From Rhizophagus irregularis (Eukaryota > Glomeromycota > Glomeromycetes > Glomerales > Glomeraceae), in the NCBI RefSeq assembly GCF_026210795.1, contig NC_089457.1, positions 2,914,001 through 2,978,000 of the forward strand: a stretch of DNA of 64,000 nucleotides, given 5' to 3'. Numbering within the stretch: position 1 is the stretch's first letter; each line of letters starts with the position of its first letter. This document shows positions 813 to 16,745 of this stretch, piece by piece. Below the pieces are notes generated by a model that saw only the letters and a program-made list of their open reading frames with translations, searched no databases and was not told the origin of the DNA. The position numbers were made by a program, and so were the translations under genes.

Positions 813-1053
813 CCATATTTTGCAGGTCACAGTACCCCCCCTATGCACAGTACCCTACAAAAAAGAACTCCCATTTTTATTATTTAAAATAATTTAATAA
901 ATACCTAGGTATTACTCATGATAAATACCCAATTATTATATAAGTTTTATACATATCTACTAATAATAAAAATTCACACAATGGTGGAAAGTATAAGGTC
1001 AAAACCTCTGAAATCTGTATCATACCCGGGGTACTGTGGCCCCCGTTATACGG
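813..1053. mobile_element. MITE with ~33 bp imperfect inverted ends and TA duplication, split at its right end
   Basis: The left end (813-845) and the reverse complement of the right end (1021-1053) share a pattern of CC, TAT, then CACAGTACCCC and TATG. The element is flanked by TA at 811-812 and, beyond the retrotransposon, TA at 13781-13782. Removing both insertions gives 'aataatatgtaatatatat', which matches an intact satellite unit at about 715-735. The retrotransposon inserted in the last four bases (ACGG), so a copy of those bases lies at 13777-13780. No coding capacity. The TA duplication suggests the Tc1/mariner group, but the family is uncertain. Confidence 0.6.
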
Positions 1054-2294
1054 TGTCACCCCCGTCTGCCACCCGGCGGTAAACAAACTTCCCTGCTTTA
1101 ATGTATATTCGTTTTCCACGAAACATTAATATTCTTGCTTGGTTTAGTTTTATTGCTACTTAACTTTCAAATTGCGATAGCTCTCGCCACGATATTTCAT
1201 CCATTATCTTCCTTCAAAATACGATAGTTCTCTTTACAGAAGTTTATATTTTATTCATTTCATAATTCTTGTTATGACATTAAATTCACCATGAATTTGT
1301 CCAATTAAAGTTAATTAAGCGAACATTACAATAAAGTTTAGGGCGAACCTATTACCTTTAAAATAACATTACGCTCTACTAACAATTAATTAAACAAAAT
1401 TACTTTTTCATCATAAGAAAATAGTAACAAAAACAATCGAAACAATTAATTTTCATATCAAAGGGTATTTTATTTATTCTTCATAAAATTCACAATTAAC
1501 TATTTTACTTAAAGTTTTACATCGTATCTGACGACTGTGGAATTCACCTCCCATTCCGCTCCTATTTAAACCAACTTTCTTATTCTTTCTTTTCTTACTT
1601 CTTATTTCTTTCTAATATTTTATATGTTATCTTTTATGCGCTATCTTATATGCTATTTTATATGTTATCTTTTCTAATATGTTATACTATTTTAGTATGC
1701 TATCTTTTCTTTAAAATAAAATAATCTTTCAAATATTGTATCGCAAAGATCCATCTTTTGTGGCTGTGCTATCTTTTCTTTAAAATAAAATAATCTTTCA
1801 AATATTGTATCGCAAAGATCCATCTTTTGTGGCTGTGCTATCTTTTCTTTAAAATAAAATAATCTTTCAAATATTGTATCGCAAAGATCCATCTTTTGTG
1901 GCTGTGCTATCTTTTCTACTGCGTCTCGTCAGCTATTCTTCTACTGCGGCTGCAGTTCATCAATATTTTACATGTTCCTATTTTTTTGTTCCTTTAATTC
2001 GCTATCCTTCCTTTTTATATGATTTATCATTTGTGGCTTATGATTACTCCTCCTAATTGTTCCTATTGTTGAACTTGATAAACTGGTTGCTAAGCCACAT
2101 CGATCAACTCCCCACTTGATCTATTGGTTCTCCGTTAATCATTTAATAAACATTACATCATGTAGATCATTCCTTCTCCTAAAAGTTTATCCTTTCCGGT
2201 TAATTTTATCCCATCATGTGACTTTCTATCGTTTGATCTTTTATTCCATATTATTCCTCCATATTATGCGATTACTCCAGTATCTATGGCTACA
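1054..2294 (-). repeat. 3' LTR of the retrotransposon
   Basis: 1241 bp, starting TGTCACCCCC and ending GGCTACA in plus-strand orientation. It looks identical to 12536-13776 wherever compared, including the short open frames inside. It contains a 69 bp tandem repeat. At 1241 bp it is long for a Ty3/gypsy LTR. The open frames inside it are duplicated with it and are not taken as genes. Confidence 0.95.
1698..1917. repeat. 69 bp tandem repeat, ~3.2 copies, inside the 3' LTR
   Basis: Copies start at 1698, 1767 and 1836, each with 'tgctatcttttctttaaaat' and ending 'cttttgtggctg'. A partial fourth copy starts at 1905. Because 69 is divisible by three, a 23-residue repeat frame stays open on the minus strand. 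That is a by-product of the repeat rather than a gene. Tandem repeats in the U3 part of an LTR often act as enhancers; that role is only inferred here. Confidence 0.9.
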
Positions 2295-2309
2295 GTTTGC
2301 CCCCCACCT
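2295..2309 (-). other. Polypurine tract of the retrotransposon
   Basis: Directly inside the 3' LTR the minus strand reads AGGTGGGGGGCAAAC. A G-rich tract abutting the LTR is where plus-strand DNA synthesis is primed in LTR elements. It lies 30 bp past the integrase stop. Confidence 0.7.
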
Positions 2310-2338
2310 AAAATTTGAGTCCCATCAAATTCGAACTA

Positions 2339-3499
2339 TTACTTCAAAATTTGTCCTTTCAGTAATTCACCATTTACTGGTGTTTTCAATATCTTCCCTT
2401 CCATAGTTTTAATTCTGTATGATCCTTTAGAAATTATCTCATGTACATAATAAGGTCCTTTCCATTTTTCTTCTAACTTTCCAGACCATTGTTTTTCTTT
2501 TGCTGCATCATAATATAGTACTTTATCTCCGATTTGTAATTTCTGCTTTATTCTATTCTTTTTATCATGGTACGATTTTTGTTTTTCCTGAGATTTCCTG
2601 ACATTTTCTTTAGCTTGATTCCTAATGTTTGGTAATCCTTCGATCAACCCATTAACTCTCTCTGCCATGGTAATTTCCTTATCTTCTAAATCTAATAATG
2701 TCTTCATTTGTCTCCCATATATTAAATATCCTGGTTCCATTTTCGTTGAATCATTCCTTTTAGTTCGATACGCGAACAATACTCCTGGTACTTTCAAATC
2801 CCAATCTTCGATATTACTTAGCTTTGCTAATGATTCACATAATGTCTTATTAAATCTTTCAATTAACCCATTAGTTTTTGGATGATAAGGCGTTGAAAAG
2901 TTATGTTTTATCTGAAATTCCTCCATTAATGATTTCACTAATTTATTATTGAAATGACTCCCTCTATCACTCAATATCTTCTTTGGACATCCATGCCTAC
3001 ATATTATATCTTCATAAATAAATCTTGCAATTTCCTTAGCATCTGCTGTTTCCAATGCCTTTGCTTCAGGCCATTTTGTAAAATAATCCATCGCTGTAAC
3101 TATATATCTATTATTTCTCTTTGTTACTGGTAATGGTCCCACTACATCAATCCCAATTTGATAAAATGGTTCTATAACTTTGATTACATTCAGTTCATGT
3201 TTTCCTATTGGTTTTCCTCTTCTCTGACAATTATTACATGATTTGACATAAGCTTCCACATCTTTTCTCATCCCTTTCCAATAATACCCATCCTTGATCC
3301 TATTATACGTTGCATCTATTCCAAAGTGTCCTGATAATTCATGATCATGAGCTATGTACATTAATCCTTCAAATTCGTATTTTCTTATCACTCTTAGTCT
3401 TTTCTCATCTTTTATTTTGTAAATTAATCCTCCTATAATTTCATATTCCCGTTCGTCGTTGATATTCCTCGCTATCCTATTATATTCTTCCTCTTCCAT
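2339..3499 (-). CDS. int: Retrotransposon integrase (separate ORF)
   Basis: 386 residues from an ATG at 3499. The N-terminal zinc-binding motif is H53-X4-H58-X29-C88-X2-C91. The catalytic core has D118 (GIDVVGP), D178 (LSDRGSHF) and E214 (GLIERFNKTL), giving the DD35E spacing of retroviral-type integrases. The C-terminal part has KWKGPYYV, the GPY motif of Ty3/gypsy integrases. No chromodomain follows. It inserts the element cDNA into the nuclear genome. In most Ty3/gypsy elements integrase is the C-terminal part of one Pol polyprotein. Here it is in a different frame from RT-RNase H and separated from it by a small ORF and a 140 bp spacer. How it is translated is unclear: internal initiation, a spliced or subgenomic RNA, or reinitiation. 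Confidence 0.95.
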   Translation of the reverse strand: MEEEEYNRIARNINDEREYEIIGGLIYKIKDEKRLRVIRKYEFEGLMYIAHDHELSGHFGIDATYNRIKDGYYWKGMRKDVEAYVKSCNNCQRRGKPIGKHELNVIKVIEPFYQIGIDVVGPLPVTKRNNRYIVTAMDYFTKWPEAKALETADAKEIARFIYEDIICRHGCPKKILSDRGSHFNNKLVKSLMEEFQIKHNFSTPYHPKTNGLIERFNKTLCESLAKLSNIEDWDLKVPGVLFAYRTKRNDSTKMEPGYLIYGRQMKTLLDLEDKEITMAERVNGLIEGLPNIRNQAKENVRKSQEKQKSYHDKKNRIKQKLQIGDKVLYYDAAKEKQWSGKLEEKWKGPYYVHEIISKGSYRIKTMEGKILKTPVNGELLKGQILK

Positions 3500-3525
3500 G
3501 TCTATGTTGTAATTCTAAAAACTAA

Positions 3526-3613
3526 AGTGTTGTAAAAGGTTGAAATGTTATAAAGGGTTGAAGTGTTGTAAAAATTAAGGTGTTGTAAAAATTAAGGTGT
3601 TGTAAAAATAAAG
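3526..3613. repeat. Short tandem repeat in the spacer before integrase
   Basis: Degenerate ~18-20 bp units built around 'gtgttgtaaaaattaag', about four to five copies. It occupies much of the 140 bp between the small ORF and integrase. It could be slippage-generated spacer or part of whatever lets ribosomes reach the integrase ATG. Confidence 0.7.
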
Positions 3614-3639
3614 CGTCGTGATAACTGTTCCATATATTT

Positions 3640-3981
3640 TTAATTTTTATCTCTCGATTTATTTTTGATCCTTGGTATTCCTATCCTTCTTATATATTTT
3701 TCATTCCCTATAATCAATTTAGATCGTACCCATCCTAATCCTTTTTCTATTGGTCTTTCTTCTATTATCATATTGTTTCCATCTTCCATAATTAATTTCA
3801 CCTTTTTCTCTTTTAGTCTTATTATAATGCGTACATCTACTAGTATGAAGTCTTCTTCTTCTTCAATCCTTAAATGGATAATTGTTTCGTTCTCTTCTTC
3901 TTTTATAGTCACTTTCCATATCTTATCGACCTTTACTCGATAGGTAAGAAACCAATTCATATAACAATCTCCTAATACCAT
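3640..3981 (-). CDS. Small unknown ORF between pol and integrase
   Basis: 113 residues from a genuine ATG at 3981. It lies in the same frame as the upstream pol ORF and is separated from it by a TAA (3997-3999) and five sense codons. The product is highly charged (Lys/Glu-rich) with alternating hydrophobic residues that suggest beta strands. No motif is recognised. It could be a separate accessory protein made by reinitiation or rare TAA readthrough, or the remnant of a once longer Pol that joined RNase H-kinase to integrase. Its coding status is less sure than that of its neighbours. Confidence 0.5.
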   Translation of the reverse strand: MVLGDCYMNWFLTYRVKVDKIWKVTIKEEENETIIHLRIEEEEDFILVDVRIIIRLKEKKVKLIMEDGNNMIIEERPIEKGLGWVRSKLIIGNEKYIRRIGIPRIKNKSRDKN

Positions 3982-3996
3982 TTTGGAGATATAATT

Positions 3997-6330
3997 TTAA
4001 GCTCTTTGGTGTTTTTCTATCTCCTTATATACTTTTCTCCAACTACTATCGTCATTCCTAACTTCAATTTGACTGTATCTTTTGGTATCTTTGTATACAT
4101 CCTGGTTTTCTTTAAACATTTTAACCATGTCCAAATATTCATTTTTCTTCAATGTTGGGTATGACGATTTCTCCATTTTCTTCGTTTCTCTTCCAATATA
4201 ATTTTCCCAACATACATCGCCGTCTTTTTCCAAAAATATCACTATTGATTCATCTATTGTTCCTTTTAATCTGAATATTTCTTTTTCCATCTCATGGTTC
4301 CCATGTGGAGTAATTAATCCTCTGTTGAAACTTTTCGTCTTCTGATAATAATATTCGCAATATGGCGATTTGTCCAGAATTATTATATCCGTATCTTCAT
4401 CATATTCTAACATTCTTCTGTTTATTTGTTCTACTACTTCCTTTCTAAATTTCCATTCTGTTTCTAATTTTGATTCGTGAAATTCACCTTTGTCTTTTCT
4501 TCTCCTTTTGAATGTATTAAATCTTACTTTTAATCCTTGCTTTTCCCACTCTTTAATCAAATTTCGTACTATACTTGTTTTTCCTAATCCATCCACTCCG
4601 TCGATTATAATAACTTGTGGCTTATTTTCTCTTCCCAATTTCTTTAATAATTCTTTTTCTGTCCTTTCCTCCAAATTCAAAAGTATTGCTTCTTTATCGG
4701 TAAAATATTTTTCATCATCCCATCTCCCTTTAAATCTTTTAGCATTATACCATTTATTCCTAAATTTGATATATCTCAATTTCCCCTTATTACTTTCTAT
4801 TTTTGTTATTTCTTGATTCTCGTTCCTTTCTGTTTCTTTTTCTTTAAATCTCAGTCTTGATAATCCATCTGCATTTTTAATTTTCTTTCCACTTCTATGT
4901 ACTATTTTAAAATCAAATTGTTGTAATTTCATTACCCATCTTGCTCTCCTTCCCGTTTGTTCCTTTCCATCTGTTAATCCTTTTAATGCTGCGTGATCTG
5001 TTATCACTATAAATTTCCTTCCTACTAAATATTTCTGAAAATGTTGTATTCCCCAAAATACCGCTAAGCATTCCAATTCTGTTGGTGGATAATTCTTCTC
5101 TGCTCCAACTGTACTCCTACTTGCGTAAGCTATTACAACCTCTTTATTTTCTTCATTCATTTGAGCTAACACTGCTCCTAATCCTATCTTAGATCCATCA
5201 GTTATCAATATAAATTCTCTGCTGAAATCCGGATATACTAAAATTGGATTTTCTGTCAATTTTGTCCTTAATACGTCAAATGCTTCTTGTTGTTCTTCTT
5301 TCCATTCAAACTTTTCATTCTTTCTTGTTAAGTTAAGCAAAGGTTTTGCTATCTTCGAAAAACCTTTTATAAATCTCCTATAATATGAACATAATCCTAA
5401 AAATGATCTTACTTCTGTGACAGTTTTCGGCCTCCTCATATTTTCTATTTTCTCAACTTTCTCTTTATCCGGTCGCAATCCATCTCTTCCTACTATATGC
5501 CCTAAGAAATTTATATTCCTCAATCCAAACTGACATTTCTTCAATTTCACAATCATATTATTCTCTCTCAATTTACTCAATACTTTATCTACATGTTCTA
5601 TATGTTCCTCAAAATCTTCTGAATAAATCATTATATCATCTAAATATACCGTAACAAATTCTCCTATATATTCTTTTAATATTTTATCCATTAATCTCTG
5701 AAATGTTCCTGGTGCATTCTTCAATCCAAATGGCATAACATTGTATTCATATAATCCTTGTGAACAAATGAATGCTGTTTTCTCTTTATCTTCTTCTGCC
5801 ATTTCTACTTGATGATATCCTGCTGCTAAGTCCAAACTTGTGAACCAACTTCCCTTTCTAAATTTTTCTAACAATTCGTCTATCCGGGGTAAAGGATATT
5901 CATCTGACTTTGTCACATTATTTAGCTTTCTATAATCTATACAAAATCTATAATTTCCAGTTTTCTTTCCTGCTAACGTTACTGGAGATGCCCAATTACT
6001 CCATGATTCTCTTATCTTCCCCATCTTTAACAATTGTTCAATTTCTTTCTTTATAAACTTTCCTTTTTCATCAGTTTCTTTATATCTCTTTTGTGCTATT
6101 GGTCCTTGATTTTCTTCAATTATTATTTCATGTTTAACTGTATTTATCCTTCCCAGTTTCTCTTCGTCATATTCGAATATATCTTCATATTCCCTTATCA
6201 ATTTTTTAAATGCCATTCTCTCCTCATCGCTCATCTCTCCCAGATGTGTTTTCTTTTCAAATTTTTCTTCTTTGCTCTCATTTAGCATCTTTACCGTCTC
6301 TCCTTCGTTCAGAAAGCCAAGACCATTCAT
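3997..6330 (-). CDS. pol: Pol: reverse transcriptase - RNase H - thymidylate-kinase-like P-loop domain
   Basis: 777 residues from an ATG at 6330 that overlaps the protease stop (ATGA). Reverse transcriptase has the LDLAAGYHQ, MPFGLKNAPGTFQ and YLDD (about 227-230) motifs. RNase H follows with TDGS near 375, ELE further on and TDH near 441, and a connection ending NADGLSRL. From about residue 570 to the end there is an extra domain that Ty3/gypsy Pol does not normally have. It has a Walker A loop GVDGLGKTS (578-586) and, near 652, LDKSPYCEYYYQ, which matches the DR(S/Y)-x-S-type motif of thymidylate and deoxynucleoside kinases. A nucleotide kinase fold is therefore likely. A role in dTTP supply during reverse transcription is inferred, by analogy with retroviral dUTPases. 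The domain is in one uninterrupted frame with RNase H. Integrase is not part of this ORF. Confidence 0.93.
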   Translation of the reverse strand: MNGLGFLNEGETVKMLNESKEEKFEKKTHLGEMSDEERMAFKKLIREYEDIFEYDEEKLGRINTVKHEIIIEENQGPIAQKRYKETDEKGKFIKKEIEQLLKMGKIRESWSNWASPVTLAGKKTGNYRFCIDYRKLNNVTKSDEYPLPRIDELLEKFRKGSWFTSLDLAAGYHQVEMAEEDKEKTAFICSQGLYEYNVMPFGLKNAPGTFQRLMDKILKEYIGEFVTVYLDDIMIYSEDFEEHIEHVDKVLSKLRENNMIVKLKKCQFGLRNINFLGHIVGRDGLRPDKEKVEKIENMRRPKTVTEVRSFLGLCSYYRRFIKGFSKIAKPLLNLTRKNEKFEWKEEQQEAFDVLRTKLTENPILVYPDFSREFILITDGSKIGLGAVLAQMNEENKEVVIAYASRSTVGAEKNYPPTELECLAVFWGIQHFQKYLVGRKFIVITDHAALKGLTDGKEQTGRRARWVMKLQQFDFKIVHRSGKKIKNADGLSRLRFKEKETERNENQEITKIESNKGKLRYIKFRNKWYNAKRFKGRWDDEKYFTDKEAILLNLEERTEKELLKKLGRENKPQVIIIDGVDGLGKTSIVRNLIKEWEKQGLKVRFNTFKRRRKDKGEFHESKLETEWKFRKEVVEQINRRMLEYDEDTDIIILDKSPYCEYYYQKTKSFNRGLITPHGNHEMEKEIFRLKGTIDESIVIFLEKDGDVCWENYIGRETKKMEKSSYPTLKKNEYLDMVKMFKENQDVYKDTKRYSQIEVRNDDSSWRKVYKEIEKHQRA

Positions 6331-6917
6331 TTTTCCTCATCTCTCTTTTCTCTATCAGTTTTTACAATCGATAACAACTCTTCTTTTTCCATCTCCTCAT
6401 ATTCATCTTCACCCTCTGACTCTTCACTAGAATTGCCATCTATATCATCTATATTCTTTGGATCTTCATTAAATTCACCCCTATTCCCTGACTCCTCAAA
6501 TTCAACATTTTTCTTTCCTCTAAAATCAATTGGTATTTCATATATTCCATTATCCCATTCTATTGTTAACAGACCTTCTTTCATATTTATTATCCCATAT
6601 CTTAATAAATCAGTTCCTAATATTAAATCTTTTCTTCTCGAGTCGATTACTTCGAACTCCAAAGGTATTTCTAAATTTTCGTCAATTTCTATTCTAATTT
6701 CCACTCTTCCTAATGAAGCTATGTTATTTCCATCTGCTATTGTTAATACGACATTACTTTCCTTCGTTATTGGTATATTTAATTCTTTTCTCAGTTCATT
6801 CGTTATCACTGAAGGTCCTGCTCCTGTATCAACTAATGCTCTAATCATTTTTCCTTCAATTATTATATTACATCTTGTTGCTTGTGATTTTTCTTCTTTC
6901 TGATTAATATTCTTCAA
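6327..6917 (-). CDS. pro: Retropepsin-like aspartic protease, expressed after gag
   Basis: About 196 residues, in the same frame as gag and directly after its TGA. The open frame resumes at 6932 and has no ATG near its start: the 6917 position is TTG. A free-standing protein is therefore unlikely, and Gag-Pro by stop readthrough is the simplest model. The active site is LVDTGAGPS (D30-T-G-A, numbered from 6917), and LILGTDLL near residue 98 is the second conserved motif of retropepsins. The C-terminal 60 residues are acidic. The stop overlaps the pol ATG as ATGA. It is expected to cleave Gag and Pol precursors as a dimer. Confidence 0.9.
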   Translation of the reverse strand: MKNINQKEEKSQATRCNIIIEGKMIRALVDTGAGPSVITNELRKELNIPITKESNVVLTIADGNNIASLGRVEIRIEIDENLEIPLEFEVIDSRRKDLILGTDLLRYGIINMKEGLLTIEWDNGIYEIPIDFRGKKNVEFEESGNRGEFNEDPKNIDDIDGNSSEESEGEDEYEEMEKEELLSIVKTDREKRDEEK

Positions 6918-6929
6918 TTCCCCCGAGTG

Positions 6930-6935
6930 TAGTCA
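6930..6935 (-). promoter_or_regulatory. Stop codon in readthrough context (TGA CTA) between gag and protease
   Basis: The gag frame ends TAT-TGA-CTA-CAC on the minus strand (TGA at 6935-6933, CTA at 6932-6930) and stays open in the same frame through the protease. UGA followed by CUA is the best known leaky-stop context in eukaryotic and viral mRNAs. The gag and protease frames are identical and the protease lacks its own ATG. Stop readthrough is therefore the likely way Gag-Pro is made. Inference from sequence only. Confidence 0.65.
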
Positions 6936-9596
6936 ATATCTCAAACCATTTAATAATTTCTTCCTTACTTCTGGTCTTTCATTCATCATTTGTCCCCAAT
7001 TAATTGGTACGCTTGAATTTACAAATTGCTCAAATGGATCAAAATCCCCAACATTTGGTATATTTCGATTTAACTTCACTTTCTCGTTTGTACATTCTCT
7101 AGCAAAATGTCCTTGTTGTCCGCAATTGTGACACCTATTATTATTCTTTCTAGTTTCATATCCTTTCTGTAATTGTTCTTTTGTAAAACCCCTCTTATTA
7201 TTCCCCTGTGCTTTTTGCTGTTGTCCTTGCCATTGTGCATTTCTTCTTCTATCTCTTTCATCATTCATAACCTTGTCTTTATTTCTTTCACTCTTTCTAG
7301 GTGGTACTGGGAACATATCGTATCTTTCCTCATCTTCATAGTTATTCACTTCGTATCCATCGAATCCATTATTATAGTTATCATATCCATCACCCTCATT
7401 ATATCCATCATATCCATCATTATATTCCATATTATACACATTATATCCTTCACCATAATATTCTTCATCAAGGTAATTAACTTGATTATTTTGGCTATAT
7501 GACCCTCTATTATTTCCTCCATATGATCTTCTTTGACCTTCCCTACAAACTCTAGAAGTATGTCCTTTTCTTCCACATGTATAGCAAGTCATTCTATCCC
7601 AGTTCATATTATTTCTTTGGACATTATTATTTCCGATCGGTCTCCTATCATTCCCATTCCTTTGCATTACATATGCTTCATTTCTCTGCATTACATGTGC
7701 TTCCAACCTTTTTATTCCATTAATTAACTCATCCCATTCATCACTTTTAACTTCTTTATTTTGTAATTCTTTCGCAATTGGATTCATTCCTTTATACTTA
7801 TTTGTCTCTTCTTTCAAAATTTCTTCCATGTTTTTCTCTTGTCCTACTCGTTTCATATCCAACCCTGTTGTTTTCATTAACAATTCATCTTTTGCTTCCT
7901 CTTCTCTTTTTGCTTCGTTAACTGCATCATTCAGATTCGTCGGATTACTTCTCCTAACATGATAACCTAGCATGGCATCTAACCCTTGAATAAAATAATT
8001 CACTTGGTATAAATCATCTAACGCATGACCTCTAGTTGCAACTCTTAATATTGACCTAAATCTTCTAATATATTCTTCAACACTTTCATTTGTTCCCTGT
8101 TTAATTCTTGTTAATTCTAACATTTTTCTTCTTTGAACATCATTCCTAGTAAATCTGTCGATTAATCTTCTTTTCAAATTTCTGTCCTCATTATGATCAC
8201 ACCAATTCACTAAATTAGCTGCTACCTTTTCTTTTTCTTCATTATACCATTGTAATGCGATTCCTCTCAAACAAGTTATGGCTATATTTGCCTTATTCTG
8301 TCTACATACACCTCCTCCAACATTTCCTTCTGGTCGTCCGCTTACTGTAAATGCTATCTCAAATTGTCTAATCCAATCATTAATATCTTCATCCTCTTTT
8401 CCACTAAAAGTTGGCATACCTACTATTCCCCCCATTCCTGCGGTCTGAATCCTATCCGCCAAAGTCTGTCCTGCCCCTAACGCATTATCTAATGCATTTG
8501 GTGCCAATCCCATAGCATTCTCCATTATTCTTCTTATTTGTGCTTCATTTGCCATATTTACTATATTCTCTTGAAATAATTCTTGTAAATTGTAATCAGA
8601 TATTTCACTTTCTGTGTCAGAATTTTTAAAATTTAATGAACTATTCGAATCTGAATTTTGACTCAGACCAAAACCTCCTGTATTTATAACATTTTCGATT
8701 TCATTTTCAGATTCTTCTTCTTCAAAATCTTCATCACTTCCGTCCCATATTTCATCCGGACTTAATATTCCTCCAATCTTTTCTGAATTATCCGTATTGT
8801 CTTCTTCTGATTCTTCATTATCACTCTTTTCACCACTTTCTTCACTATCCATTACTCCTGCTTGTTCTTTCAACAACTTATCTAACTTTTTCTTCAATTC
8901 TTTTTCCGACTCATTCTTATTTTCTTGAAAGATTTCAATGAATTCTTTATCTAAAATTTCTCCATCTGTATATCCCATACTAGTTAATCTTAACAATTCT
9001 TCTTCGGTTATCATTGTTCCAATATCTTCAAAAATCTTTTGCAATCTTTTTACCCGATCATCAATTTCATCAATATCTTCTTCCTCACAATCTTTGCATA
9101 TAGTTCCTTCTAATCTAAACATATCATTCATCCATCTTATTTCGCATCTTTCGCACCAGGTTGTGTTCTCATTTAACCATTTGTGCACCTCTTTTCTTAA
9201 CTCTCTATCTTCTAATTCTATTATCCCCATATACCTTTCTATGAATCCTTCTGTTACTATTATTCGATTATTAACTCCAAAATTTTTTATTCTTTGAATT
9301 TCCGATACATCTATTTCGTATCCTAATTTTTCTAAGTTGTTTTTTAGTTCTATTAATTCATCTTGTTCATCTTCCCGTATTTCCCGATTACATTCTTCAC
9401 ATCTGCCGTCTTCTTCCGATATCACATAATCTAATTTCTGTTTATTGCATCTACCACATATTTTTGTACTCAAATCTATCCACTCCTTTATGTCTTCAGA
9501 CTTATCAAATTTCCCCTCCTGAAAAATATAATATCTTATAAAATCATATGTCAACAGTACTCCCGTCTCTATCTTTTCTTTTATTCCAAATTTCAT
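6933..9596 (-). CDS. gag: Gag with duplicated N-terminal zinc ribbons and two CCHC knuckles
   Basis: 887 residues from an ATG at 9596. The N-terminal ~230 residues hold two diverged copies of a ~95-residue module, each with a CxxC...CxxC ribbon (CGRC/CEEC and CERC/CKDC) followed by a helical stretch. Residues ~250-345 are strongly acidic and Ser-rich. A retrotransposon gag domain covers about 400-545, with WIRQFEIAF, ALQWYNEE and EYIRRFRSI. Two CX2CX4HX4C nucleic-acid-binding knuckles follow: CYTCGRKGHTSRVC near 670 and CHNCGQQGHFAREC near 825. Between them is an Asn/Tyr/Gly-rich low-complexity stretch. The protein forms the particle and packages RNA. Its ATG shares one base with the stop of ORF1 (TAATG). 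At 887 residues it is long, and the N-terminal ribbons are not typical of Ty3/gypsy Gag. Confidence 0.92.
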   Translation of the reverse strand: MKFGIKEKIETGVLLTYDFIRYYIFQEGKFDKSEDIKEWIDLSTKICGRCNKQKLDYVISEEDGRCEECNREIREDEQDELIELKNNLEKLGYEIDVSEIQRIKNFGVNNRIIVTEGFIERYMGIIELEDRELRKEVHKWLNENTTWCERCEIRWMNDMFRLEGTICKDCEEEDIDEIDDRVKRLQKIFEDIGTMITEEELLRLTSMGYTDGEILDKEFIEIFQENKNESEKELKKKLDKLLKEQAGVMDSEESGEKSDNEESEEDNTDNSEKIGGILSPDEIWDGSDEDFEEEESENEIENVINTGGFGLSQNSDSNSSLNFKNSDTESEISDYNLQELFQENIVNMANEAQIRRIMENAMGLAPNALDNALGAGQTLADRIQTAGMGGIVGMPTFSGKEDEDINDWIRQFEIAFTVSGRPEGNVGGGVCRQNKANIAITCLRGIALQWYNEEKEKVAANLVNWCDHNEDRNLKRRLIDRFTRNDVQRRKMLELTRIKQGTNESVEEYIRRFRSILRVATRGHALDDLYQVNYFIQGLDAMLGYHVRRSNPTNLNDAVNEAKREEEAKDELLMKTTGLDMKRVGQEKNMEEILKEETNKYKGMNPIAKELQNKEVKSDEWDELINGIKRLEAHVMQRNEAYVMQRNGNDRRPIGNNNVQRNNMNWDRMTCYTCGRKGHTSRVCREGQRRSYGGNNRGSYSQNNQVNYLDEEYYGEGYNVYNMEYNDGYDGYNEGDGYDNYNNGFDGYEVNNYEDEERYDMFPVPPRKSERNKDKVMNDERDRRRNAQWQGQQQKAQGNNKRGFTKEQLQKGYETRKNNNRCHNCGQQGHFARECTNEKVKLNRNIPNVGDFDPFEQFVNSSVPINWGQMMNERPEVRKKLLNGLRY

Positions 9597-9598
9597 TA
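9594..9598 (-). promoter_or_regulatory. TAATG stop-start overlap between ORF1 and gag
   Basis: On the minus strand TAA (9598-9596) of ORF1 and ATG (9596-9594) of gag share one base. Such overlaps are the classical arrangement for termination-reinitiation. The gag frame is shifted relative to ORF1, so readthrough cannot join them. A spliced gag mRNA is the alternative. Confidence 0.55.
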
Positions 9599-10849
9599 TT
9601 TCTCTGATGAATTCTTCTTTGGATTTACTATCAGTTGTCTTAATCCTGTCCTTATTTCACTTAACTTCCACGTTTTATCTTCTACTATTATTTCTATTTC
9701 TTCTTCAGAATCATACATTTCATTATCTTCTTCTTGCTTTATCTCCACTAACTTGAATTTTTGTGTTCTTTCCATTGTTTCTTTTAAATCCGTTACAACC
9801 CATTCTATTACACCATCATCTATTCTCAATATGATAGGATTTCTTGTATATATATCTTCGCTATCTTTAAATGTCATACTATCCATTAGTTTTCTTACAG
9901 TATCTTCTTGCAAATTTTCTCCCTCAGATAACATCTTCTCGAACCATTCTGGTGAATCATTTTCATGATATGTATGTATTTGTTTACCTTCATATTTGTC
10001 ATTCCACCAGTACCTAAATCTTTCAAATCTAAGATATAAACTCATGTTAAAATTCTTTTTCATTTCGTAACTTTCTAAACTATCTTCACTTTCTGAATCT
10101 TCTGGTTCTTTTATAAAGCCCCTAGTATCTATAAATATTCTTATTATCTTTTGTACCATATTCCTGTGATATTCGTGAACATTTTCTATGTCTATATTCC
10201 CATATTCCATATTGGACATTAATTCTTTTACTTTCTCCTCATTCGTAGCTATTCCTTCTTCTTCATAAAGTAATTCCCTGAATGTCTTTATTGCTCCCAT
10301 CTTTACCCGTAATGGTTCAACTTCTTTCGATGTGATCTTGTACCATTGCCAAAATTTTTCAAACCTTCTTTCAACATCCCAATCTTCCAAAATATATTTG
10401 TGTTCTATTAATTCAGGATTCCCAATTAATCTATCAAATACTTCATTCTCTAAATCTCCTTCAATACAATCTCTTACAATTACTAATATAATTGTTCGTA
10501 ATCCTTTTTCTTTCATTTTTGGTTGTATTCTATATCTTATTGACTCTGTTATTCTATCCATTATGTCTCTACATTTTCCCTTGTGTATTGTATCTTCTCT
10601 TTCTGAATTATCCATACTTAATAAATCTATTACTCCCTTGATCGTTACATTATTATATATTATTATTGTATCTTCGAACTTAAATAATGCATCCCAAAAT
10701 TTCTTGAATACCATTGGTTCATTTTCTATCGGATGACATAATTCACAATTTAAACATTCATCTAATTCTCCCGCTCTTAACTCATGTTCTCCTTTATGTG
10801 TCCTATATTCACTTTCCCATTGATGGTACCATTCCATCGTATACTCCAA
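9596..10849 (-). CDS. ORF1, unknown protein upstream of gag
   Basis: 417 residues from an ATG at 10849, the first long ORF after the 1.7 kb leader. The protein is charged, Glu/Lys/Asp- and Trp-rich and probably mostly helical. One small cysteine cluster, CLNCELC, sits near the N-terminus. No signal peptide, membrane segment or known retroelement motif is recognised. Its position before gag, with a TAATG junction to gag, means it would be the first protein made from genomic RNA. The absence of breaks and the coupling to gag argue that it is a functional element gene. It could be a second structural protein or a captured host-derived protein. Confidence 0.7.
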   Translation of the reverse strand: MEYTMEWYHQWESEYRTHKGEHELRAGELDECLNCELCHPIENEPMVFKKFWDALFKFEDTIIIYNNVTIKGVIDLLSMDNSEREDTIHKGKCRDIMDRITESIRYRIQPKMKEKGLRTIILVIVRDCIEGDLENEVFDRLIGNPELIEHKYILEDWDVERRFEKFWQWYKITSKEVEPLRVKMGAIKTFRELLYEEEGIATNEEKVKELMSNMEYGNIDIENVHEYHRNMVQKIIRIFIDTRGFIKEPEDSESEDSLESYEMKKNFNMSLYLRFERFRYWWNDKYEGKQIHTYHENDSPEWFEKMLSEGENLQEDTVRKLMDSMTFKDSEDIYTRNPIILRIDDGVIEWVVTDLKETMERTQKFKLVEIKQEEDNEMYDSEEEIEIIVEDKTWKLSEIRTGLRQLIVNPKKNSSEK

Positions 10850-11471
10850 TTAAATTATTATAAATATTCATCCAGAATTCAAATTGAAATTCCGCTCTCT
10901 TATATATCATTTTTATCGCTTCTATTTTGATCTTCTAACCATCCTTCACTATATCGTCCTTTTCTATTACATATATTGAATGTATAATCTTTCTTTCATT
11001 AAGAATATTCATTTAACAACTTATTCTTCTAAATCTTTTACTTATTCATAATATTCTCATGTTGATCTTTCAATCTTTAAATCCCCTTTTTTGATTTTCA
11101 CAAGTTTCTTCCGCTATTTTTATCTTTCATAATTTCATGTATATATTTTACTGCGCCATTAATTCAAAAATTATTCTAAGTCCACAATCTCCTCAGACTG
11201 CGGAGGTTTTTACTGCGCATTCTAAAAATTTCAAAAATTTTCTAAGTTTTTACTGCGCCTCAAAATTTCCTTTTATCATCGAAATTTATAATTTTCGCAT
11301 TTCACGAACTTCAAAATTCTCATAACTTCTAAAGTTCGTGAATTTTTTAGTTCTTTTTCATTATATATGTAATCTTTACATCCATATATTTAATATTACG
11401 CAAAATATCTTCTTTGTTTAATCTTGTACTAACTCTTATCATAACCATTATGTCGACACACAACATATTAT

Positions 11472-11546
11472 ACTTTATGCGACACACGCATCTACACTTA
11501 TGCGACACACGCATTTATACTTATGCGACACACGCATTTATACTTA
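11472..11546. repeat. ~24 bp tandem repeat in the retrotransposon leader
   Basis: Three near-identical units of the form 'acttatgcgacacacgcatt', each containing the palindrome-like 'tgcg...cgca'. Each unit could form a small stem in RNA. Confidence 0.85.
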
Positions 11547-11881
11547 TTTAACGGTGTTTCTTCTTATTTATTATCTTTTACCATTCAATAACCTATACTC
11601 GGCTTGCCTTTACCTTCCCAATGAAGTATAGTAGTTTCGAGGTTTGCTATTCATCTTATCCCATAATACTTATCTTCTTTTCATGAGTTCAGTTGCGCAT
11701 TTCCCTCAATGCTTCCAGTTTCATCTGAAGAAATTATACTCACGATGGTTTCTCTTTTTGCCTTGTAAATTCAGTTACGCATTCTCAAAATGCTTTCAGT
11801 AGGGAGATGTTCCACTCACGTCTGAGTCCAATTATTTCGATTCCCATCCGAAGAAGTTATATTTACAGCCGGTGTTTTTGT

Positions 11882-11970
11882 AATAGGTTCCCACGTAACC
11901 CTTGTGTTTTAAATAGGTTCCCACGCAACCCTTGTGTTTTGGTAACAGGTTCCCACGCAACCCTTGAGTT
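11882..11970. repeat. ~30 bp tandem repeat in the retrotransposon leader
   Basis: Three units with the core 'aggttcccacgcaaccctt', the first with one substitution (cacgtaacc). The units lie in the untranslated leader of the element. Confidence 0.85.
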
Positions 11971-12516
11971 TATAGTTTACCCGTCAACTTTTCGTTACAA
12001 CATTGTATCCCCAGGAACTTCTGGCATCTGCAAAATACAATGGTGCCCCTCCCAGAATACAACATCTTACGAGGGCTTCCTTAATTTCTTGGTTTTACAA
12101 TTATTAGCGCGAAAACTTTAAAGACGACAACTTTTGTGACTTACTACAATACTTTTCCGGATATTCTTGTAACAAATCTATTACTTTGAAACGAGTTCAT
12201 TATATTCCATCATATCACCGCATCCTTCTTTTTATAATTCCTAAGGTAGGTGTATAATATCGCTATTTCGCCCGTTCCCATTTTAAAGTTTTTCAGGTAC
12301 TTACAACCTTTTCCCCAATATTATATTTTAATTCTAATACCTCTTTTTCTGAGTTCAGATTCTTTGGAATACCACGTCGGTACCATGATCGGAACGATCC
12401 TTCCCTTCGCGAGTGATCAATTCACTTAGTTGTTGACCGATTCCTCCTTAATACCGCATAGGTACTTGACTATAAGAAGATAGTCAAAATGTCGACGTAA
12501 AGTCAACATTTCCTTT

Positions 12517-12532
12517 CTCGGAGCATGCACCA
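12517..12532 (-). other. Primer binding site
   Basis: Three bases inside the 5' LTR the minus strand reads TGGTGCATGCTCCGAG. It begins TGG, complementary to the CCA end of a tRNA. The implied tRNA 3' end has a 7-base acceptor strand, a discriminator A and CCA, so tRNA priming fits. I did not assign the tRNA identity. Confidence 0.75.
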
Positions 12533-12535
12533 AAT

Positions 12536-13776
12536 TGTCACCCCCGTCTGCCACCCGGCGGTAAACAAACTTCCCTGCTTTAATGTATATTCGTTTTCCA
12601 CGAAACATTAATATTCTTGCTTGGTTTAGTTTTATTGCTACTTAACTTTCAAATTGCGATAGCTCTCGCCACGATATTTCATCCATTATCTTCCTTCAAA
12701 ATACGATAGTTCTCTTTACAGAAGTTTATATTTTATTCATTTCATAATTCTTGTTATGACATTAAATTCACCATGAATTTGTCCAATTAAAGTTAATTAA
12801 GCGAACATTACAATAAAGTTTAGGGCGAACCTATTACCTTTAAAATAACATTACGCTCTACTAACAATTAATTAAACAAAATTACTTTTTCATCATAAGA
12901 AAATAGTAACAAAAACAATCGAAACAATTAATTTTCATATCAAAGGGTATTTTATTTATTCTTCATAAAATTCACAATTAACTATTTTACTTAAAGTTTT
13001 ACATCGTATCTGACGACTGTGGAATTCACCTCCCATTCCGCTCCTATTTAAACCAACTTTCTTATTCTTTCTTTTCTTACTTCTTATTTCTTTCTAATAT
13101 TTTATATGTTATCTTTTATGCGCTATCTTATATGCTATTTTATATGTTATCTTTTCTAATATGTTATACTATTTTAGTATGCTATCTTTTCTTTAAAATA
13201 AAATAATCTTTCAAATATTGTATCGCAAAGATCCATCTTTTGTGGCTGTGCTATCTTTTCTTTAAAATAAAATAATCTTTCAAATATTGTATCGCAAAGA
13301 TCCATCTTTTGTGGCTGTGCTATCTTTTCTTTAAAATAAAATAATCTTTCAAATATTGTATCGCAAAGATCCATCTTTTGTGGCTGTGCTATCTTTTCTA
13401 CTGCGTCTCGTCAGCTATTCTTCTACTGCGGCTGCAGTTCATCAATATTTTACATGTTCCTATTTTTTTGTTCCTTTAATTCGCTATCCTTCCTTTTTAT
13501 ATGATTTATCATTTGTGGCTTATGATTACTCCTCCTAATTGTTCCTATTGTTGAACTTGATAAACTGGTTGCTAAGCCACATCGATCAACTCCCCACTTG
13601 ATCTATTGGTTCTCCGTTAATCATTTAATAAACATTACATCATGTAGATCATTCCTTCTCCTAAAAGTTTATCCTTTCCGGTTAATTTTATCCCATCATG
13701 TGACTTTCTATCGTTTGATCTTTTATTCCATATTATTCCTCCATATTATGCGATTACTCCAGTATCTATGGCTACA
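12536..13776 (-). repeat. 5' LTR of the retrotransposon
   Basis: 1241 bp copy of 1054-2294. It is expected to contain the promoter (U3) and transcription start of the element, reading toward lower coordinates. It carries the same 69 bp tandem repeat at 13180-13399. No difference from the other LTR was noticed, which implies recent insertion or gene conversion. Confidence 0.95.
13180..13399. repeat. 69 bp tandem repeat, ~3.2 copies, inside the 5' LTR
   Basis: Counterpart of 1698-1917, with the same unit and copy number. It sits in the presumptive promoter half of the LTR. Confidence 0.9.
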
Positions 13777-13780
13777 ACGG

Positions 13781-14404
13781 TAATATATATATAAATTATT
13801 TTATTTTATAAATTTTTATTTTAATATAATATATATAGTGTAATGTTAAAGTAACTTCTAATAATATATAATATATTAATTAAAATATTGCAAGAGAATG
13901 GCCAGAAATTAAATCATTTTCTAAGGAAGAAGGGAACTCAGGAAGTTAAAACCATAGTACTGTAATGTTATCTATTTTCCATTTTTAGACACTTGTAGAG
14001 TTGTAGTTAATATAATTCTGGATAGAATTTATTATTCTATATGAATCGATTGACTTGACCCTAATTGATCCTGATAAAAACATATTTTGTGAATAACTTT
14101 TGATCTAGCAGTCCAATAGCTAGTCTAATATATTGATTAAAATAATGCAATACATCATACTATATTAAAAAAAATTATATTAAATTAGCAAAATGTAATA
14201 ATTAATGGAATATATCAATTTATTAATTTTAAAAATTATTTTTATTTTTTATAAATTTTATTTTTCAATACAATATGTATTATGTAATGTTAAAATAACT
14301 TCTAATAAAATTAGTAAAAGCATCCATTAGACATACAATGAGTTAGTGGATAAAAACTGTTGCCTAATTTAGATAGAACATATAGATAAAACTAATCTCA
14401 AATA
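13781..14404. repeat. AT-rich satellite resumes, then unassigned DNA
   Basis: 13781-13890 continues the ~83 bp satellite unit split by the insertions. A diverged copy of the core lies near 14270-14310. Between these (about 13890-14260) I see no gene, only AT-rich sequence with stops in all frames. Confidence 0.6.
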
Positions 14405-16690
14405 TTTAAGTGGAAAAATGTCTTCAAGTTATAAGGCAAAAATGCCTTCAAGTTATGAGAACAAAATGGCCTTAAAATTATAAGAATAAAAATAACCTCA
14501 AGTTAGCACGTCTGAAATATGTGTCAGGTTGACGGCGCAGTGTAGCGCAGTAATTCAAAAAAATCTAAGTTGAAGATTTTCTTTTTAATGTAATGCTTTC
14601 AAATTTACACATTAGATGTATTTTCATCTGTTTTACAAAATTCACTTATAAACGGAAGGAGGTTTTGGACGTAGATTTTGACTTTAGTATATAACAACTG
14701 ATTTTATCGTCTTTGCCAATCATTTCCAAAATTGAATTTGTCAAAAAACGGTTTTTGTTAAATAACTCGAAAATGGCCTTCTAAACCGCCTGTATATACT
14801 CTAAGTAAATTTGCAGAGCGGACGAAAATACATCTAGTGCAGTAATTTAAAGGTTATATTTTAAATAAAAAAAATTGCAATTTAATTTTTTTGGAAAAAT
14901 CGCTGCGCCACACTGCGCCGTCAACCTGACATACATTTCAGATGTGCCTCAAGTTATGAGAATGACAATGTTCTCAAAATTACAAAGACTAAAATAAGGA
15001 TAAAATATCCTCAAAATTATGAGAACAAAAATATTCTCAAAATTATGAAGATAAAATTGTTTTCCTCAAAATTACAAGAATAACAATATTCTCAAATTAT
15101 GAGGACAAAAATGTCCTTAAATTATGAGTCTTCAAATTATGTGAACAAAATTACAAAAACAAAATGTCCTCAAATTACAAGAACAAAAATGTCCTTAAAT
15201 TATGAGAACAAAAATATTCTCAAATTGTGAGAATAACAATATCCTCAAATTTATAAGGATAAAAATGTAAAGATTTTGAGAACAAAATGTCCTTAAAATT
15301 ATGAGAATAAAAATATCCTCAAATTATGAGGATAATAATGTCCTCAAAATTATGAGGACAAAAATATCCTAAATTACAAGAACAAAAATATCCTCAATTA
15401 CAAGGAAAAATGTCTACAATTACAAGAACAGAAATGTTCTCAAATTATGATAATAATGTCCTTAATTACAAGGACAAAAATGTCCTCAAATTATGAGGAC
15501 AAAAATGTCTTCAATTGCAAGGACAAAAATGTCCTCAAATTATAAGAACAGAAATGTCCTCAATTACAAGGACAGAAATGTCCTCAAATTACGAGGACAG
15601 AAATGTCCTCAATTAAGGACAAAAATGTCTTCAATTACAAGGACAAAATTGTCCTCAAATTACAAGAACAAAAATGTCTACAATTACAAGAACAGAAATG
15701 TTCTCAAATTATAAGGATAATAATGTCCTTAATTACAAGGACAAAAATGTCCTCAAATTATGAGGACAAAAATGTCCTCAATTGTAAGGACAAAAATGTC
15801 CTCAAATTATAAGAACAGAAATGTCCTCAATTACAAGGACAGAAATGTCCTCAAATTACGAGGACAGAAATGTCCTCAATTAAGGACAAAAATGTCTTCA
15901 ATTACAAGGACAAAATTGTCCTCAAATTACAAGAACAGAAATGTCCTCAAATTATGAGGATAACAATGTCCTTAATTACAAGGGCAAAAATGTCCTCAAA
16001 TTATGAGGACAAAAATGTCCTCAATTGCAAGGACAAAAATGTCCTCAAATTACAAGAACAATAATGTCCTCAATTACAAGGACAAAAATATTCTCAATTA
16101 CAAAAACAAAAATGTCCTCAAATTATGAGGACACAAAAATGTCCTCAAATTACAAGAACAGAAATATCCTCAAATTACGAGGACAGAAATGTCCTCAATT
16201 AAGGACAAAAATGTCTTCAATTACAAGGACAAAATTGTCCTCAAATTACAAGAACAGAAATGTCCTCAAATTATGAGGATAACAATGTCCTTAATTACAA
16301 GGACAAAAATGTCCTCAAATTATAAGGACAAAAATGTCCCCTCAATACAAGGACAGAAATGTCTTCAATTAAAGGGACAAAAATGTTCTCAATTACAAGA
16401 ACAAAAATGTCCTCAATTATAAGGACAAAATATCCTCAATTGCAAGGACAAAATTGTCCTCAAGTTACAAGGACAGAAATGTTCTTAAATAAGAGGACAA
16501 AAGTGTCCTTATAGTTGGACAAAAATCATGTCCTCATAGTTGCGAGGACAAAAATGTCCTTAAAGTTGCAAGGACAAAATATACTCAATTTACAAGAACA
16601 ACAATGTCCTTAATTACGAGGATAAAATTGTCCTCAAGTTACAAGGACAGAAATGTCCTCAAATTATGAGGACAAAAATGTCCGCGCTTA
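14405..16690. repeat. Satellite of ~25 bp palindrome-bearing units
   Basis: Dozens of diverged units of the form 'ggacaaaaatgtcctcaaat', alternating with 'tacaa/tatga'. Each unit contains the small palindrome GGAC-aaaaa-GTCC. From about 15490 there are longer higher-order copies: a block near 15493 recurs 267 bp on at 15760, and the block near 15870 recurs 319 bp on at 16189. The left part (14405-14505) is separated from the main array by a MITE. Lys/Ser-rich open frames through the array are a by-product of repetition. No unique spacers are present, so it is not a CRISPR array. Confidence 0.92.
14506..14947. mobile_element. MITE with ~45 bp inverted ends and 9 bp duplication (Mutator-like)
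   Basis: The left end (starting GCACGTCTGAAATATGTGTC) and the reverse complement of the right end (GCACATCTGAAATGTATGTC) stay similar for about 45 bp through 'aggttgacggcgcagtgt'. The flanks are exact 9 bp repeats CTCAAGTTA (14497-14505 and 14948-14956). A 9 bp duplication with long inverted ends fits Mutator-like elements. Because the target is itself a repeat, part of the duplication could be chance. No transposase is encoded in the 442 bp. Confidence 0.7.
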
Positions 16691-16745
16691 TAAGGTCACA
16701 TGATCTCTGCTTAATATTGGCCAATAAAAACCATGGTTTCCGTAG

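Follow-up and report, generated by a model that had tools for sequence, protein, structure and literature searches.

A predicted kinase domain of the thymidylate/deoxynucleoside kinase fold between RNase H and integrase in a Ty3/gypsy group of Rhizophagus irregularis

The stretch of DNA analysed, referred to as the window, comprises 64,000 nucleotides of Rhizophagus irregularis (assembly GCF_026210795.1, contig NC_089457.1, positions 2,914,001 to 2,978,000; window coordinates are used unless another contig is named) and contains one complete long terminal repeat (LTR) element at 1054-13776 on the minus strand. In its Pol open reading frame (ORF), reverse transcriptase (RT) and RNase H are followed by a P-loop domain with the predicted fold of the thymidylate kinase (TMPK)/deoxynucleoside kinase (dNK) superfamily. 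Searches of the genome (146.7 Mb, 32 contigs) indicate that this putative captured nucleotide kinase is a standard Pol domain between RNase H and integrase (INT). Four subfamilies were compared within the genome, A (that of the window element), B, C and D. The features of the element were as follows.

1050..1053, no strand: target-site duplication ACGG, left copy, flanking the element
1054..2294, minus: 3' LTR, 1241 bp, TG start and CA end, 0 mismatches to the 5' LTR
2295..2308, minus: polypurine-like tract GGTGGGGGGCAAAC, abutting the 3' LTR
2339..3499, minus: INT ORF, 386 aa, with Integrase_H2C2 and rve
3640..3981, minus: 113-aa ORF that separates the kinase from INT, with no family match above the cut-off
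3997..6330, minus: Pol ORF, 777 aa, RT - RNase H - linker - kinase
4000..4626, minus: Pol kinase domain with the predicted TMPK/dNK fold, residues ~569-777
4342..4374, minus: motif DKSPYCEYYYQ where beta-3 ends, corresponding to TMPK DR(Y/H)..Q
4492..4512, minus: basic loop FKRRRKD after beta-2, holding K52 and R55, at what we take to be the place of the TMPK loop for the phosphate of the deoxynucleoside monophosphate (dNMP)
4573..4599, minus: Walker A motif (P-loop) GVDGLGKTS, coinciding with the zone where the kinase cassette switches
4627..4851, minus: C-like linker joining RNase H to the kinase (in subfamily B the linker has about 11 aa)
6327..6917, minus: 196-aa aspartic protease (PR) ORF that overlaps the start of Pol (AATGA)
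6933..9596, minus: gag ORF, 887 aa, with Retrotrans_gag and zinc knuckles
9596..10849, minus: 417-aa ORF upstream of gag, with a TAATG overlap with the gag start
12517..12532, minus: 16-nt primer-binding site, the complement of the tRNA-Gly(GCC) 3' end with CCA
12536..13776, minus: 5' LTR, 1241 bp
13777..13780, no strand: target-site duplication ACGG, right copy, flanking the element

The ORFs were thus ordered 417-aa ORF, gag, PR, Pol, 113-aa ORF and INT, with gag, PR, RT, RNase H and INT in the order of Ty3/gypsy elements, and the TG..CA LTRs, target duplication, tRNA primer site and polypurine tract were those of an LTR element. The primer site matched three tRNA-Gly(GCC) gene copies, while a reversed control pattern gave 0 matches. 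Because the LTRs are identical, the insertion is very recent, and the window element is a recently inserted Ty3/gypsy retrotransposon, the class to which an earlier sequence-only reading had assigned it. A chromodomain, as expected of a chromovirus, gave no match at E ≤ 1 in the 386-aa INT, a search that a very divergent one could escape, and the element was not placed among the chromoviruses. RVT_1 (1.7e-41), RT_RNaseH (3.1e-36) and then the P-loop region were found in a single frame of the 777-aa ORF, in agreement with the earlier claim that kinase and RNase H are fused; what that reading called the Pol ORF was correct as RT-RNase H-kinase and is one ORF of Pol only, with PR (6327-6917) and INT (2339-3499) encoded separately. 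The 113-aa ORF had 25 rows genome-wide, 23 of which adjoined kinase rows that were ≥95% identical (compared by eye).

The predicted structure of the kinase domain was a confident model, and fold searches with it returned the overall fold of the TMPK/dNK superfamily, not one outside it; the structure matches shown (50 rows in each search) were nearly all nucleoside or nucleotide kinases. With members of this superfamily (S. aureus TMK, 4hld; human dGK, 2ocp; PF02223; PF01712) the domain shares the fold, Walker A, an Asp at the end of beta-3 and an Arg at the LID position, whereas it differs in having DK for DR, in an identity of 13-15% in structural alignments and in being fused to RT-RNase H or INT. 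For conservation, the window domain was aligned with 52 of 117 related proteins, mostly domain-covering ones (53 rows, 51-84% identity to the window), and the putative catalytic residues were nearly invariant. The Walker A motif, recognized as such by the earlier reading, fitted GxxxxGK[ST] with its Lys kept in 51/53 rows; K52 and R55 of the basic FKRRRxD loop, R73, D97 and R158 were each present in all 53, and Pfam Thymidylate_kin was matched at E ≤ 0.01 by 45 rows. The conserved parts were the P-loop, the basic acceptor loop, the D-K motif, which is followed by a TMPK-like Tyr-Gln, and the LID-position Arg. Comparison with a 3-row TMPK profile gave 97%, against 44% for guanylate kinase in a single-sequence comparison, the two figures not being strictly comparable. 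Among the 30 best-scoring genomic copies, 11 of the 12 key residues scored were identical in 30/30 and the twelfth, R55, in 29/30 (Lys in one), with one stop in total. Comparison of subfamilies A-D placed the kinase under purifying selection, as RT and INT are; in the A-B kinase pair, the sole unsaturated comparison, nonsynonymous (dN) and synonymous (dS) divergence were 0.052 and 0.685, respectively (ratio 0.076).

At least 151 kinase matches were found in the genome, 150 of which were tabulated; 130 of these were full length (≥590 nt), including 108 in open frames of ≥500 aa, and several Rhizophagus/Glomus species carried the domain, which is therefore not confined to one copy of the family. 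The kinase motif and domain are far beyond chance, and a chance P-loop or an assembly artefact was ruled out by the same counts. A search for RT-RNase H, in which 104 of 353 candidates were scored, gave 105 rows, all ≥65% identical to the window. In 104 of them a kinase match lay on the same strand no more than 1.5 kb downstream (103 different kinase rows, two of the RT rows having come from one broken RT), and the lone exception had one 15 kb downstream, also on the same strand. The closest named proteins were from R. irregularis DAOM 181602=DAOM 197198, P0001 being 100% identical over the domain; named matches outside this species were from R. clarus, R. diaphanus (fragments) and Glomus cerebriforme, and the remainder were metagenomic or unnamed.

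The kinase lay between RNase H and INT in all elements whose arrangement was read (ARRANGEMENTS). In subfamilies A and C it was joined to RNase H by a linker of ~80 aa and in B by one of 11 aa, while in subfamily D it was on a separate ORF, fused to INT (L032, 593 aa; likewise proteins P0027 and P0029). Four copies, L024, L026, L027 and L028 (contigs C3, C11, C11 and C31, respectively), had no RT within the 1.5 kb upstream examined, where only the final 27 residues of the RNase H query were matched; L026 and L027 were identical over 3630 bases. In L024, a gag-like remnant was joined via the RNase H end to an intact kinase (569 aa) and INT followed in its own ORF, an organization indicating that L024 is a non-autonomous form retaining the kinase.

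Subfamily A was closest to C in amino acid identity both for RT-RNase H (C 78.6%, B 67.7%, D 65.5%) and for INT (C 81.3%, D 60.0%, B 59.2%), whereas its kinase was closest to that of B (89.7%; C 62.5%, D 60.3%). In the kinase tree, A, B and E grouped together (100/99), and C and the copy L044 were placed in a different group, which was moderately supported (91/94 and 91/87). Measured against A, L044 had 3 mismatches in 328 positions of RNase H (99.1% identity) and 4 in 243 of the linker (98.4%), then 180 in 600 of the kinase (70.0%) and 41 in 360 of INT (88.6%), so that INT also differs more than RNase H; the difference between linker and kinase was marked (Fisher 4e-25). The switch point was located at the P-loop codons (window ~4560-4610), and the far edge fell after the kinase and before INT, in the interval that holds the 113-aa ORF in A. 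These comparisons indicate that the kinase is exchanged as a unit between subfamilies and that L044 is likely to represent the earlier state before the switch. Such exchange would have occurred by template switching between co-packaged or co-expressed elements, and it points to the kinase as a discrete module that undergoes replacement and not loss.

As to the origin of the domain, a PF02223 search of the genome gave four matches, two on C13, one on C24 and one on C6. Those on C13 (3242213-3242464 and 3242883-3242981) were taken as a host TMPK-like gene, and that on C6 was a degraded retroelement copy. A recent copy of the host thymidylate kinase was not supported as the source, the host TMPK-like gene being separate from the element kinase. 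The C24 match (L034, 3288271-3288729; PF02223 E 8.5e-11) was a thymidylate-kinase-like stretch at a host locus, with LEGCEDTNTT at the place of the P-loop and a frame that appeared HMG-box-like by eye just before it. No relative of the kinase was found in 50,697 phage records, nor in viral contigs or GTDB genome contigs, scans which required short conserved words plus tblastn E ≤ 1e-3 and which distant donors could escape. In a profile search with 102 matches, all those below E 1e-3 looked like the element kinase family or NUDIX-kinase relatives, and the remaining two were dTMP kinase-like proteins (E 1.2 and 6.3). The NUDIX-kinase relatives P0122 (393 aa) and P0130 (352 aa) are metagenomic proteins in which a NUDIX domain at the N terminus (Pfam 2.4e-5 and 5.5e-8, respectively) precedes a kinase of the same family, which is 44% and 38% identical to that of the window and keeps the DKSPY.EY.YQ motif; unlike the element proteins, neither had an RT or INT match.

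The likeness of P0122 to the element kinases, that of the window included, extended ~35 residues upstream of the P-loop. When this segment, including three residues next to beta-1, was compared by 200 shuffles each in 21 relatives (window not included), p ≤ 0.01 was obtained in 16/21 and p ≥ 0.05 in 3/21 against P0122, and in 9/21 and 8/21, respectively, against P0130, for which the predicted model was weak (predicted local distance difference test, pLDDT, 69.1). A NUDIX remnant in the linker is thus a lead, and a NUDIX-kinase ancestor is the best lead for a possible donor lineage.

On the evidence of motifs and predicted fold, we consider it fairly probable that the domain is an active (deoxy)nucleoside monophosphate kinase used during reverse transcription. 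It would be catalytically active and would most likely phosphorylate a dNMP, dTMP being the first candidate; such an acceptor is favoured because the basic cluster that follows beta-2, at the site at which TMPKs hold the acceptor phosphate, is invariant. Translated within Pol, the kinase would enter the virus-like particle and could supply deoxynucleoside diphosphates and dTTP locally for reverse transcription of the A+T-rich element (GC content, 31%) when host pools are low, a role comparable to that of retroviral dUTPases, which are thought to act on the dUTP/dTTP balance. Help with dTTP supply in non-dividing hyphae, as suggested by the earlier sequence-only reading, would be one possible form of this role.

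Several observations weigh against this interpretation. TMPK and dNK families were tied in the fold search, and a viral-library search was mixed between them to the same degree. The window domain scored below both the Pfam gathering cut-off for Thymidylate_kin (21.6 of 27 bits) and the NCBIfam dTMP kinase cut-off (18.9 of 83.25). The motif that the sequence-only reading had described as DR-type was indeed located, at 4342-4374, but its residue pair is DK, with Lys in 52/53 rows; DR(Y/H/S) is the thymidylate kinase motif and was present in the three TMPKs compared. Of the designation thymidylate-kinase-like, therefore, the TMPK/dNK fold stands, whereas identity as a thymidylate kinase was not established, with families tied, cut-offs unmet and Lys for Arg. 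In a sequence profile search against PDB, FtsY ranked above TMPKs; an FtsY/signal recognition particle identity was set aside after the fold search, as these matches span only the N-terminal surroundings of the P-loop. The five kinase pairs other than A-B had dS >1 and are indicative only, and 47 of the 150 kinase rows had no scored RT in reach, comprising truncated copies and copies whose RT was unscored. In addition, the host has its own TMPK-like gene, so the need for an element kinase is not obvious.

Three other functions were considered. A salvage deoxynucleoside kinase, converting deoxynucleoside to dNMP, seems rather unlikely: dNKs (PF01712) have a catalytic acidic residue, the general base, in the loop after beta-2, which is invariantly basic here, yet D57 follows in 51/53 rows, and both the Thymidylate_kin matches and the Tyr-Gln speak for the TMPK side. 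That the domain is a P-loop kinase of the same fold acting on another acceptor, a nucleic-acid end or a small molecule, during cDNA synthesis or integration would accord with the unusual acceptor motifs (DK, KRRR), with weak Pfam matches to many P-loop families, with a weak PHROG polynucleotide-kinase match (E 0.0016) of the distant relative P0122, and with the substrate not being fixed by sequence alone; the predominance of nucleoside and nucleotide kinases among the structure rows shown makes this improbable. Finally, the constant position between RNase H and INT and the RT-less copies that retain the kinase might point to a module without catalysis, structural or interacting with the host, that serves packaging or the architecture of Pol. 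Since a structural role would not need the conserved key residues (Walker A Lys, D97, R55, R73 and R158, and the near-identity of all twelve in the genomic copies), we regard an inert role as very improbable.

Starting from the preferred reading of an active monophosphate kinase, a wider scenario may be put forward tentatively, as a possibility less probable than that reading itself. In this Ty3/gypsy group of arbuscular mycorrhizal fungi, the kinase would be an obligatory, particle-carried Pol enzyme derived from a NUDIX-kinase nucleotide-pool protein with most of the NUDIX half lost, and would pass between element lineages as a cassette, making nucleotide supply part of what retroelements compete for.

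Retroelements rely on host deoxynucleoside triphosphate pools, through which hosts restrict them. Non-primate lentiviruses carry a dUTPase between RT and IN, and the fold and reaction of retroviral dUTPases are unrelated to those of a kinase. Domains of dUTPase are described in fungal Ty3/gypsy elements (PosPlaTy3 of Postia placenta; PMC2864245) and in bdelloid LTR elements (PMC5408684), and viral dUTPases are proposed to help replication in cells that do not divide (PMC2864245, PMC5408684). Like the window element, these LTR elements have captured a nucleotide-pool enzyme in Pol, at a variable position (PMC2864245, PMC5408684), and the retroviral dUTPase occupies the same slot as the window kinase, between RT/RNase H and IN (PMC5408684); the difference is that dUTPase hydrolyses dUTP, whereas the fold in the window is that of a P-loop kinase. 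The word 'kinase' did not occur in the main texts of PMC2864245 and PMC5408684. Gain of an enzymatic domain by Ty3/gypsy elements is also described for orchid elements with an N6-methyladenosine (m6A) demethylase domain, in which enzyme and host differ (PMC9289625).

In R. irregularis, unclassified repeats make up about a third of the genome according to a transposon study, in the main text of which 'thymidylate' did not occur (PMC8647823). Among the open-licence literature matches listed, as far as their texts were accessible, none dealt with a nucleotide kinase carried by an LTR element, subscription papers and Repbase notes being outside this scope. Some JGI metagenome proteins with the domain are auto-named 'thymidylate kinase'; the domain is thus machine-labelled, but not described in the literature as far as searched. 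If the proposed function is true, a (deoxy)nucleotide kinase next to RT would be a case, direct and open to testing, of a retroelement that brings along its own synthesis of DNA precursors, and would take the precedent set by dUTPases a step further, from cleaning the nucleotide pool to making it. The cassette swap provides a natural test of which Pol modules face separate selection, and the kinase domain is a clear marker for this Ty3/gypsy group.

The TAATG overlap of the 417-aa ORF stop with the gag start and the AATGA overlap of PR and Pol suggest re-initiation or frameshifting as the expression strategy. Inside each LTR (1698-1917 and 13180-13399), three identical 82-nt copies were found at a spacing of 69 bp. 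About 0.6 kb from the element, a long array of AT-rich repeats of ~24-25 bp occupied 14400-16700.
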